DNA of 64,000 bases from Methylophilus sp. 13. Its GTDB lineage: Bacteria; Pseudomonadota; Gammaproteobacteria; Burkholderiales; Methylophilaceae. The notes below the pieces were generated by a model, which saw only the letters and a program-made list of their open reading frames with translations, did no database searches and was not told where the DNA came from. Location: assembly GCF_015354335.1 (NCBI RefSeq), contig NZ_JADKYR010000003.1, forward strand, positions 186,001 through 250,000. Reading direction: 5' to 3'. A program made the position numbers and the translations under genes. Positions 53,281-56,258 of the stretch are shown here, one piece after another (within the stretch, counting starts at the first letter, position 1; each line of letters opens with the position of its first letter).

Positions 53281-53348
53281 GGCGTTGTAATTATTTATCT
53301 TGAGATACTTTCTCGACTATCATATCACCGTCATACTATCCTTGCGTA

Positions 53349-53364
53349 AGCAAACAAGCAGCCA
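53349..53364 (-). promoter_or_regulatory. possible sigma-54 promoter of mshE
   Basis: Minus strand TGGCTG-CTTGT-TTGCT. GG and GC are correctly spaced; two bases of the -24 box differ from consensus. The predicted leader is about 57 bases, close to that of mshA. It lies 4 bases before the trmL start codon on the other strand. Confidence 0.5.
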
Positions 53365-53367
53365 AAC

Positions 53368-53832
53368 ATGTTTCATATCGTGCTTTTCGAACCCGAAATC
53401 CCGCCCAATACAGGCAACATTATCCGTCTCTGTGCCAATGCAGGTGCCAGGCTGCATCTGGTCAAACCACTGGGTTTTGAACTTTCAGATAAACAGTTAA
53501 AGCGGGCTGGACTGGACTACCATGAATATGCAGCGTTGACCGTGTATGAAAACTGGGCGGAATGCCAGCAAGCGCTGCATGGAAAACGCATGTTTGCCTT
53601 GACCACCAAAGGCAGCACGCGCCACAGCGATTTGCAGTTTAAAGACGAGGATGTATTTGTGTTTGGACCAGAGTCACGTGGCTTGCCAGAAGAAATTCGC
53701 GCCCAATTTGCGGCAGAGCATCGTGTCAGATTGCCAATGTTGCCGCATAGCCGTAGCCTGAATTTATCCAACTCAGCCGCAATTTTGCTGTATGAAGCCT
53801 GGCGACAAGTCGGGTTTACCGGTGGTGTTTAA
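53368..53832 (+). CDS. trmL: tRNA (cytidine/uridine-34 2'-O)-methyltransferase
   Basis: SPOUT-family methyltransferase acting on the wobble base of tRNA-Leu (154 aa). FEPEIPPNTGNIIRLCAN at the start and FGPESRGLPEEIR with LPMLPHSRSLNLSNSAAILLYEAWRQ near the C-terminus form the trefoil-knot SAM site. No extra RNA-binding domain, as expected for TrmL. It diverges from mshE with 87 bases between starts. Confidence 0.95.
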   Translation: MFHIVLFEPEIPPNTGNIIRLCANAGARLHLVKPLGFELSDKQLKRAGLDYHEYAALTVYENWAECQQALHGKRMFALTTKGSTRHSDLQFKDEDVFVFGPESRGLPEEIRAQFAAEHRVRLPMLPHSRSLNLSNSAAILLYEAWRQVGFTGGV

Positions 53833-53856
53833 AATCACCGTCTAAAACCTATAGAC

Positions 53857-53955
53857 AAAAAAAGCCCCGATTAAGGGGTAAATCGGGGCAATAGGCCTCA
53901 TCGTAAAGGCTTCCGCTCAGGGAGGAAAGAAGCGGAAAGATGATTCATCATCATC
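53857..53955 (-). ncRNA. candidate ~100-nt small RNA with anti-Shine-Dalgarno loop
   Basis: Minus-strand transcript unit between two plus-strand genes. It has (1) an ECF/sigma-E-like promoter (see 53962-53991), (2) a hairpin TTTCCGCT ... AGCGGAAG (about 53911-53942) whose 13-base loop TCTTTCCTCCCTG is complementary to ribosome-binding sites, (3) a small GCCT/AGGC helix, and (4) an intrinsic terminator GCCCCGATT/AATCGGGGC followed by seven T, ending near 53857. No ORF is present. CUUUCCUCCC-type loops recall the stress-induced CcsR or cuckoo RNAs described in alphaproteobacteria; homology is not claimed. Confidence 0.6.
53864..53889 (-). terminator. terminator of the candidate small RNA
   Basis: 9-bp stem GCCCCGATT/AATCGGGGC with an 8-base loop, T-run only on the minus strand (53857-53863). 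It therefore does not serve trmL well, whose transcript comes from the other strand. Confidence 0.85.
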
Positions 53956-53961
53956 GTGCAA

Positions 53962-53991
53962 GTATGAGTGTGGGATGTTTTAAAAAGTTCC
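53962..53991 (-). promoter_or_regulatory. ECF/sigma-E-like promoter of the candidate small RNA
   Basis: Minus strand GGAACTT (53985-53991), 17-base spacer, TCATAC (53962-53967). GGAACTT is the classical -35 box of RpoE-type factors; the -10 is less well matched. Confidence 0.5.
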
Positions 53992-54077
53992 AGAGAAATG
54001 TTGCGTGCAACGATTTGCCGAGTACAAGCGCATGCTTAGACTGCGCCTGAAACGCTGCATCATGCGATAATAACAGC

Positions 54078-56258
54078 ATGTATTCTGAAAATAATCTGTT
54101 ACAGGGCCTGAATGATAAACAACTGCAAGCGGTCACCCTGCCGCATGTCTCGGCACTCATTCTAGCCGGGGCCGGCAGTGGCAAAACCCGCGTGCTCACC
54201 ACGCGGATTGCCTGGTTGATCCAAACCGGGCAAACCTCCCCCATGGGCCTGATGGCAGTGACGTTTACCAACAAAGCTGCCAAGGAAATGCTGACCCGCC
54301 TCACCAGCATGTTGCCGATCAATACACGCGGCATGTGGGCAGGCACCTTTCACGGCTTGTGTAACCGCATGTTGCGCGCGCATTACCGTGAAGCGGGCTT
54401 ACCTAATACCTTTCAGATTTTAGATACCGCCGACCAGCTTTCTGCCATCAAGCGCGTGATGAAACTGATGAATGTGGATGATGAAAAATATCCACCCAAG
54501 CAGGTGATGGGCTATATCAATAGCTGCAAAGAGGAAGGCCTGCGAGCGGATAGCGTCGATGCTTACGACGGCCATAGCCAGAAATTGCGCGAAATTTATG
54601 CGGCCTATGATCAGCAATGTAACCGCGAAGGCGTGGCCGATTTTGCCGAGTTATTATTGCGTTGCTACGAGTTGCTAGAACGCGAACCGCACATCCGTGC
54701 GCATTATCAGCAACGCTTTCAATATATCCTGGTCGATGAGTTTCAGGACACCAACCGTCTGCAATACCTGTGGCTAAAACTGTTAGGCGGCGCACATAAC
54801 AGTATTTTTGCCGTCGGGGATGACGACCAGAGCATTTACGCATTCCGTGGCGCACGCGTCGGCAATATGAATGACTTCCAGCGCGATTTCAACGTGCAGA
54901 ATATCGTCAAGCTCGAAGAAAACTACCGTTCGCACAGCAACATCCTCGATGCCGCCAACGCCATCATTGCCAACAACCGCAACCGTTTGGGTAAAAACCT
55001 GTGGACCTCGGCCGGCAAGGGCGAGCCGATTCGCATTTATGAGGCTTACAACGATACCGACGAAGCGCAGTTTATTGTCGATGAAGTGAATATGCTGCAA
55101 AAAGAAGGCGTACCCTTGGGCGAGATGGCCCTGCTCTACCGCAGCAATGCGCAGTCCCGCATTCTCGAACATACCCTGTTTTCGGCCAACATCCCTTACC
55201 GCGTGTATGGCGGTCTGCGCTTTTTCGAGCGGGCTGAAATCAAACACGCTTTGGCCTACATGCGGCTGATTGCCAACGCCAACGACGACACGGCCTTGTT
55301 GCGTATTATTAACTTCCCGCCCCGCGGCATCGGTGCGCGTGGCCTAGAACAACTGCAAGAAGCTGCGCGCCAAAATGAATGCAGCTTATGGCAGGCCGCC
55401 ACCAACAAAGTGGGTGAAGGCAAGCTAGGCAGCAAAGGCCTGGATGGCTTTGTCGCCTTGATCCGGCAAATTGTTGACCAAGGCTACGGCATCACGCTGG
55501 GTGAAATGGCAGAAATGGTCATCAACCTGAGTGGCCTGATGGCGCACTACCAAAACGACAAAGAAGGCGAAGACCGCATTGAAAACTTGCAAGAACTGGT
55601 GACGGCTGCGGTCGCCTTTAGCAAGCAGGACTTGGGTAACCATCACAACATGGAGGAAGATGCCGACCTGCTGACCCAGTTTCTGAACCATGCCAGCCTA
55701 GAAGCAGGCGACCATCAGGCCGACGTTGGTCATGAGGCCCTGCAACTGATGACCGTGCATGCCGCCAAAGGTCTGGAGTTTCAGAGTGTGTTTATCAGCG
55801 GCGTCGAAGAAGGCCTGTTCCCACACGAGCAAGCTGCCTATGAAAATGGTGGCCTTGAGGAAGAGCGGCGGCTCATGTACGTCGCCGTCACGCGCGCGCG
55901 CCAGCGCTTGTATATGACCTATGCGCAAAGCCGCATGCTACATGGACAAGTTCGCTACGGCATCCCTTCACGCTTTGTCGATGAAATTCCTGCCGAACTC
56001 ACCAAACGCCTGAATAGCAAACCGGCTGCCAAACCTTATGCGGCTGGCGGTCAATACACCATGCCAGCTGCACAACCGGCAAGCACCCAGTCCAACTATC
56101 CGTTCAAGATTGGTCAAAGTGTGCGCCACAGCAAATTTGGCGAAGGCGTGGTAGTCAGCTATGAAGGCAATGCCAGCGATCTGGCCGTGAAAGTGAATTT
56201 TGGCAGCGCCGGATTGAAAACGCTGATGCTCGAATACGCCAAGCTGGAAAAAATCTGA
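54078..56258 (+). CDS. uvrD: DNA helicase II, UvrD
   Basis: 726-aa SF1A 3'-5' helicase for nucleotide excision and mismatch repair. Motif I LILAGAGSGKTRVL, Ia AVTFTNKAAKEM, II LVDEFQDTN, III VGDDDQSIYAFRGA, IV LLYRSNAQSR, V VHAAKGLEFQSVF and VI YVAVTRARQRLYM are all intact. The C-terminal Tudor-like module of UvrD/PcrA (KIGQSVRHSKFGEGVVVSYEG) separates it from Rep. The ATG lies about 90 bases downstream of the small-RNA promoter, on the opposite strand. Confidence 0.96.
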   Translation: MYSENNLLQGLNDKQLQAVTLPHVSALILAGAGSGKTRVLTTRIAWLIQTGQTSPMGLMAVTFTNKAAKEMLTRLTSMLPINTRGMWAGTFHGLCNRMLRAHYREAGLPNTFQILDTADQLSAIKRVMKLMNVDDEKYPPKQVMGYINSCKEEGLRADSVDAYDGHSQKLREIYAAYDQQCNREGVADFAELLLRCYELLEREPHIRAHYQQRFQYILVDEFQDTNRLQYLWLKLLGGAHNSIFAVGDDDQSIYAFRGARVGNMNDFQRDFNVQNIVKLEENYRSHSNILDAANAIIANNRNRLGKNLWTSAGKGEPIRIYEAYNDTDEAQFIVDEVNMLQKEGVPLGEMALLYRSNAQSRILEHTLFSANIPYRVYGGLRFFERAEIKHALAYMRLIANANDDTALLRIINFPPRGIGARGLEQLQEAARQNECSLWQAATNKVGEGKLGSKGLDGFVALIRQIVDQGYGITLGEMAEMVINLSGLMAHYQNDKEGEDRIENLQELVTAAVAFSKQDLGNHHNMEEDADLLTQFLNHASLEAGDHQADVGHEALQLMTVHAAKGLEFQSVFISGVEEGLFPHEQAAYENGGLEEERRLMYVAVTRARQRLYMTYAQSRMLHGQVRYGIPSRFVDEIPAELTKRLNSKPAAKPYAAGGQYTMPAAQPASTQSNYPFKIGQSVRHSKFGEGVVVSYEGNASDLAVKVNFGSAGLKTLMLEYAKLEKI

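Follow-up and report, generated by a model that had tools for sequence, protein, structure and literature searches.

The window analysed here is a 64,000-nucleotide stretch of Methylophilus sp. 13 DNA. A predicted small RNA (sRNA) gene with its own promoter and terminator spans positions 53991-53857 of its minus strand, wholly inside the gap between trmL, which ends at 53832, and uvrD, which starts at 54078. The promoter elements, RNA hairpins and flanking genes are as follows.

53985..53991, minus strand: -35 element GGAACTT, RpoE (sigma-E)-type (sequence; matches family promoters)
53962..53967, minus strand: -10 element TCATAC, 17 bases from the -35 element (sequence)
53857..53957, minus strand: anti-hemB-family sRNA, predicted length about 98-101 nt (RF02837 match and fold; 5' end inferred from the -10 element)
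53939..53955, minus strand: 5' hairpin, upstream of the Rfam model (fold and covariation in relatives)
53911..53937, minus strand: stem-loop 1, bearing the CU-rich loop (model alignment and fold)
53919..53929, minus strand: loop CUUUCCUCCCU, complementary to purine-rich ribosome-binding sites, CCUCCC core at 53925-53920 (fold)
53895..53910, minus strand: stem-loop 2, GCCUU...GAGGC (model alignment and fold)
53857..53889, minus strand: intrinsic terminator, stem 53889-53864, loop UACCCCUU, then seven T (terminator search and fold)
53368..53832, plus strand: trmL-type SpoU methylase gene, neighbour outside the sRNA unit (Pfam PF00588)
54078..56258, plus strand: uvrD helicase gene, neighbour divergent from the sRNA (Pfam UvrD domains)

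Since the sRNA gene is intergenic, the label 'antisense' given to it in an earlier note on this DNA is not right. The promoter elements described in that note lie exactly where it placed them, and the TCTTTCCTCCCTG loop hairpin, the second small stem and the seven-T terminator are likewise present; its list of hairpins missed the covarying one at the 5' end. Folding of 53857-53960 predicted four hairpins at -39.3 kcal/mol (z -6.85; shuffle mean -20.5 kcal/mol), an energy equalled by 0 of 200 shuffles. Single elements are not rare: two terminator-like sites occur in 53300-54500 (shuffle mean 1.6), and the promoter pattern with at most one mismatch has three matches in 64 kb (4.0 expected). The case is therefore carried by the fold, the Rfam match and conservation. 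A tRNA search over the window returned none. An 18-amino-acid open reading frame (MMMNHLSASFLPERKPLR; minus strand, 53954-53898) begins within the 5' hairpin, and similar frames occur in several relatives; a conserved peptide was considered and rejected, an ATG frame of at least 10 codons being found in only 49 of 118 members.

The RNA matches RF02837 (anti-hemB) at 53.5 bits, above the gathering score of 49.5, with 53857-53938 covering model positions 1-81 of 81. By model alignment and fold, the succession of CCUCCC-loop stem, second stem and terminator is that of RF02837. Sequence comparison thus places the sRNA in an already catalogued Rfam family and excludes a new one, and the match and the fold together uphold the earlier proposal of a stand-alone sRNA. 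The host genome has one clear RF02837 copy, and a second, weak match consists of the terminator alone. The covariance-model search of relatives proposed earlier found RF02837 (E ≤ 0.001) in 85 of 120 Methylophilaceae genomes (74 above cut-off), 232 of 300 genomes of the order (190 above cut-off) and 168 of 369 genomes of the class (21 above cut-off), tallies that over-count because 3 of 14 control genomes also give sub-cut-off matches. The small genomes listed for genera g14 and g16 (about 1.2-1.4 Mb) have no clear copy of the RNA, yet most retain rpoE and hfq: the sigma factor can persist in a genome that is without the RNA. A weak match in one g16 genome (G114) is terminator-like. Some class-level genomes carry tandem RF02837-like matches within about 1 kb, sub-cut-off and with three or four listed per genome (G584:C33:13148-13886, G675:C3:217579-218301 and G691:C8:6853-7475).

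For comparison of loci within Methylophilaceae, a motif filter retained 84 of 92 (L090 being a 10-base slip), and removal of L059 as too short left 83; L088 lay outside the set. Four weak terminator-like matches lacking the CU hairpin (L002, L089, L091 and L092) were left out, and the filter also dropped two family members, L033 and L054, the former of which carries the promoter pattern. Because this filter uses the loop motif, loop conservation was counted in loci picked by Rfam match alone, where the CCTCCC core is present in 39 of 40 order loci and 25 of 26 class-level loci; the tally of 106 of 108 distinct members depends on the filter and is not independent. The loop complementary to ribosome-binding sites, as the earlier note had read it, is accordingly a conserved property of the family. 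So is the terminator: 88 of 108 distinct members have [AT]CCCCTT in their final 45 nt.

Covariation supports the 5' hairpin, which the Rfam model does not cover. Across 66 relatives, two-sided changes occur in six of six pairs, and the score was reached by 0 of 500 shuffles. With the partner columns shifted, pairing over the two helices combined dropped from 88.6% to 35-55% of cells. This alignment was confined to the 66 RNAs whose 5' segment measures 16-24 nt, since the 108 full-length RNAs aligned poorly under MAFFT/RNAalifold; about ten rows with longer loops stay misaligned and weigh against the structure. The 5' segments also fold more stably than their shuffles (mean z -3.2; 96 of 102 below -1), in a set that omits six RNAs in which the script found no stem 1.

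Promoter conservation was pronounced. GAACTW-N16/17-TC lies upstream of 80 of the 83 Methylophilaceae members, the window's included, against a shuffle mean of 0.73 and maximum of 5 of 83; of the exceptions, one (L003) carries GGAACC and two (L046 and L085) have the motif beyond the counted stretch. The spacing is 16 in 37 and 17 in 43 of these 80. Among 75 distinct family promoters, the first -35 base is G in 46, T in 20 and A in 9, the remaining -35 bases (GAACT[AT]) being fixed by the search pattern itself. A matrix built from these 75 promoters, drawn from the 83 loci, reached a threshold score of at least 10 in all 83 family loci (the same loci that built it), in 32 of 40 order representatives (the best listed match for each of 40 other families) and in 17 of 26 class-level loci outside the order, leaving 8 and 9 loci, respectively, below threshold. 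The class-level set derives from the 29 best places in 168 matching genomes, minus L378 (contig end) and L357 and L366 (order members). None of 158 full-length control windows elsewhere in the order loci scored 10 (160 windows minus two running off a short contig), and the matrix beat its own shuffles at p < 0.01 in 31 of 40 order representatives. Reverse-strand matches numbered 0 of 40 in the order and 0 of 26 in the class, but 7 of 83 in Methylophilaceae. The -10 element ends 15-29 bases before the Rfam model start in 48 of the 49 above-threshold order and class loci, and 33 bases before it in one.

Promoter retention varies among families. In 20 extra loci, mostly from promoter-weak families, 11 fit a relaxed pattern (0 of 3 in f49 and 1 of 4 in f18). 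Burkholderia-like L116 and L337 show at best a degraded RpoE motif; L338, L339 and Pararobbsia L138 retain a version. A combined promoter and loop scan of named genomes gave 106 stretches, including Methylophilus, Methylobacillus, Methylotenera, Sulfuricella, Thiobacillus, Nitrosospira, Sideroxydans and Gammaproteobacteria MAGs; at least two (L155 and L187) look like chance. Three such MAGs (L222, labelled Arenicellales, L237 and L238) carry RF02837 above cut-off with RpoE-type promoters, immediately 3' of polA. An RpoE-type promoter for the anti-hemB RNA, here and in most relatives examined, is strongly supported by these comparisons.

Gene neighbourhoods are less constant than the RNA. uvrD adjoins 82 of 83 Methylophilaceae loci, and trmL adjoins 12 of 83, all 12 with uvrD too; in six named Methylophilaceae loci, polA lies 5.2-5.5 kb further on. 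Among genes within about 1.5 kb of the order loci, engB occurs at 36 of the 40, a cytochrome c gene at 35, hemB at 30, trmL at one and uvrD at none. Of the 27 RF02837 loci from outside the order, which are among the best-scoring matches and were read for about 1.5 kb on each side, 16 have polA upstream in the same orientation and 15 have engB on the opposite strand. The window locus, flanked by trmL and uvrD, has neither the polA-engB arrangement nor hemB beside it, unlike the location that gave anti-hemB its name. That minus-strand transcription chiefly serves to interfere with uvrD expression would explain why uvrD adjoins nearly every Methylophilaceae locus; we consider this highly improbable, given that uvrD is found in 0 of the 40 order stretches, all of which hold the RNA (for which they were chosen) and 32 of which hold the promoter.

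The assignment to RpoE draws on the other places where the motif occurs. In the 3.1-Mb Methylophilus genome, exact GGAACTW-N16/17-TCNNA has three sites, against 50 for a reversed pattern that may differ in composition and is thus an imperfect control. The three precede the anti-hemB RNA, an rpoE-rseA operon and an rpoH-like gene. The rpoE-type gene 3' of the motif matches TIGR02939 above cut-off and is followed by an RseA gene; the second sigma gene has Pfam sigma regions and was assigned as rpoH by eye. Both rpoH and an autoregulated rpoE belong to the classical sigma-E targets. Across 16 genomes of the genus there are 46 pattern matches and 493 reversed ones, with the same caveat on composition; 13 of the 46 are the sRNA (two of them, in G411 and G412, identified from promoter similarity alone), and the motif precedes rpoE in 10 of the 12 genomes in which the place of rpoE is known. 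The pattern is about tenfold rarer than its reversed form in Methylophilus genomes, as if selection removed stray copies. Methylophilaceae genomes mostly encode rpoE (115 of 120) and hfq (112 of 120), and the host genome has both.

These results strongly support the earlier suggestion of an ECF- or RpoE-type promoter. Another ECF sigma factor, or sigma-70 acting constitutively, might still transcribe the same sRNA, which would then be a housekeeping or nutrient-linked regulator and not an envelope-stress RNA. We regard this as unlikely: a search of 53300-54500 found no sigma-70-like promoter, where shuffles give 1.4, and the motif, rare as it is, also precedes rpoE and the rpoH-like gene in the host, as it does rpoE in 10 of the 12 genus genomes in which both places are known. 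It would fit the absence of the RpoE motif from some families, the five matches to the RpoE model in the host genome (the two listed being one above and one below cut-off) and the behaviour of the Burkholderia cenocepacia anti-hemB RNA, ncS04, which did not change significantly in seven tabulated conditions in the available text of PMC5688073. We conclude that RpoE control is probable here, as judged from sequence, and is not described in the literature found, the family itself being already known; the sRNA is ordinary as a family member and unusual in its probable control. The open-access titles listed on RpoE-linked sRNAs in betaproteobacteria, Burkholderia and neighbours included no RpoE-controlled anti-hemB RNA, which is weak evidence, and a search of the open-access literature for Methylophilus sRNAs found nothing on the subject.

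Sequence comparison establishes family membership, promoter type, the hairpins, loop conservation and the presence of rpoE-rseA and hfq; we infer transcription in Methylophilus, induction by envelope stress, Hfq binding and translational repression. Our main reading, with a probability of about 0.67, is a trans-acting anti-hemB sRNA made from its own RpoE promoter, bound by Hfq and repressing translation through its loop under envelope stress. Envelope stress would lead RseA to free RpoE, and an RNA of about 100 nt would be transcribed. By analogy with other RNAs, Hfq would bind it through the terminator U-run, and the CUUUCCUCCCU loop would base-pair with a group of mRNAs at their ribosome-binding sites and so block translation; the UACCCCUU terminator loop perhaps pairs too.

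Published work on relatives bears on parts of this reading. The anti-hemB RNA has been treated in Khoo 2012 (PMC3521395) and Sass 2017 (PMC5688073), ncS04 being described in the latter as a 105-nt RNA with a confirmed 3' end and reported Hfq binding. In the accessible parts of the same paper, brief (20-minute) exposure to SDS, a membrane stress, or to peroxide largely failed to induce the sRNAs tested in B. cenocepacia. The stress induction proposed in the earlier note follows from the promoter only and is set against the lack of significant change in ncS04. A weak Burkholderia promoter may be the reason for the latter, the promoters in question being those of the Burkholderia-like loci L116 and L337. 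A transcriptome study of Cupriavidus metallidurans, as far as the available text of PMC7563307 goes, detected none of the sRNAs known from B. cenocepacia and B. pertussis. The term 'RF02837' was not found in the open-access literature, and the literature found assigns no role to anti-hemB.

Target searches were less informative. AGGGAGG-N4-10-ATG occurs at 13 genome sites (reversed control, 2), two of which precede open reading frames of at least 150 amino acids, ketoacyl-synthase-like and lipoprotein-like by eye; this simple site search of the whole genome gave no convincing target. CAGGGAGG sites were listed across the 16 genus genomes. Porins, suggested by analogy with MicA and RybB, were rejected as targets: loop energies at their start regions (-4.4 to -12.3 kcal/mol) fall within the background of 57 window genes (mean -8.3, sd 3.4), that is, without enrichment and no better than background start-site pairing. 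That test drew on 17 Porin_4 places in the genus, four of them sub-cut-off, of which 16 were scored (L330 had no row) and several have uncertain starts.

The repression of many mRNAs, as claimed earlier, fits what is described for CU-loop RNAs of other families, S17 of Bordetella pertussis and NcS27 of Burkholderia, but neither of the two simple target tests produced a convincing target. S17 has been shown with a translational reporter to repress BP2158 directly; of its 92 candidate genes, 70 have complementary sites at or near ribosome-binding sites (PMC11722255). A decoy would be a different use of the same loop, the anti-Shine-Dalgarno sequence sponging another sRNA, a protein or ribosome components and leaving mRNAs unrepressed. 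The complementarity is general and no specific target emerged, as a decoy would predict; we nonetheless rate it as quite improbable, because other-family RNAs with such loops act (S17) or are predicted to act (NcS27) on mRNAs, as far as they are described, and the loop lacks the GGA motif of the CsrA/RsmA kind. GGA is the binding motif of CsrA/RsmA-type proteins, and titration by binding proteins, which the earlier note had entertained, found no support.

Conservation of the RpoE promoter in most of the families examined provides anti-hemB, an RNA without a role in the literature found, with a probable trigger, and suggests that betaproteobacteria have an envelope-stress sRNA of their own. It may also tie an orphan named in Burkholderia to ErsA, whose targets are known, and an experiment in a harmless methylotroph could thus test the question for the whole class.

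Among the closest known systems, anti-hemB/ncS04 shares its covariance model, CU loop and terminator with the window RNA. The latter differs in adjoining uvrD instead of hemB, in having a clear RpoE promoter where Burkholderia-like L116 and L337 have a missing or degraded one, and in its 5' hairpin outside the Rfam model. S17 and the NcS27 double-hairpin RNAs (RF02278) likewise have CU-rich stretches complementary to ribosome-binding sites by their descriptions; membership of RF02278 (Betaproteobacteria toxic small RNA) was rejected at 20.8 bits against a gathering score of 50, and S17 is described as having a sigma-A promoter and RNase E processing, in contrast to the RpoE-type promoter here. 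CcsR/cuckoo RNAs are alphaproteobacterial, have CCUCC-type loop motifs and lie beside a DUF1127 gene. The window RNA resembles them in the loop motif, and the kinship proposed in the earlier note is rejected: the Rfam match is to anti-hemB, with no CcsR-type match, and in a Pfam scan none of three neighbour proteins (SpoU methylase, UvrD and a T2SSE-type ATPase) is of DUF1127 type.

ErsA of Pseudomonas aeruginosa is controlled by sigma22/AlgU, a functional homologue of sigma-E, lies between polA and engB (PMC8395346, PMC8575079, PMC7565897) and has been called a functional orthologue of Spot 42. Of the class-level RF02837 loci, 16 of 27 have polA and 15 of 27 engB in this arrangement, and 17 of 26 have the promoter type, which makes anti-hemB a possible betaproteobacterial counterpart of ErsA. 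This likeness is one of position and promoter type, with ErsA taken from its description; the described ErsA pairing region is a U-rich unstructured domain II, unlike the CCUCCC loop proposed to pair in anti-hemB. Spot 42 (spf) occupies the same chromosomal slot as those class-level loci, the E. coli order being polA > spf > < yihA (engB). Membership of the Spot 42 family was rejected, the window RNA reaching 23.7 bits with RF00021, whose gathering score is 80, and RF02837 had no match on E. coli spf even at E 10. The E. coli Spot 42 annotation includes a small protein, SpfP. We tentatively propose, at somewhat below even odds and with ErsA again known by description, that a single ancestral sRNA of the polA-engB gap, RpoE-controlled and with a CCUCCC loop, gave rise to anti-hemB and ErsA, and perhaps to Spot 42. 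Jointly with this, and with the same reserve, the ancestor would have been an ancient beta- and gammaproteobacterial envelope-stress RNA, a counterpart of MicA and RybB, whose stress promoter weakened in Burkholderia, whose slot came under shifted control in enterics and whose gene was relocated to uvrD in Methylophilaceae.
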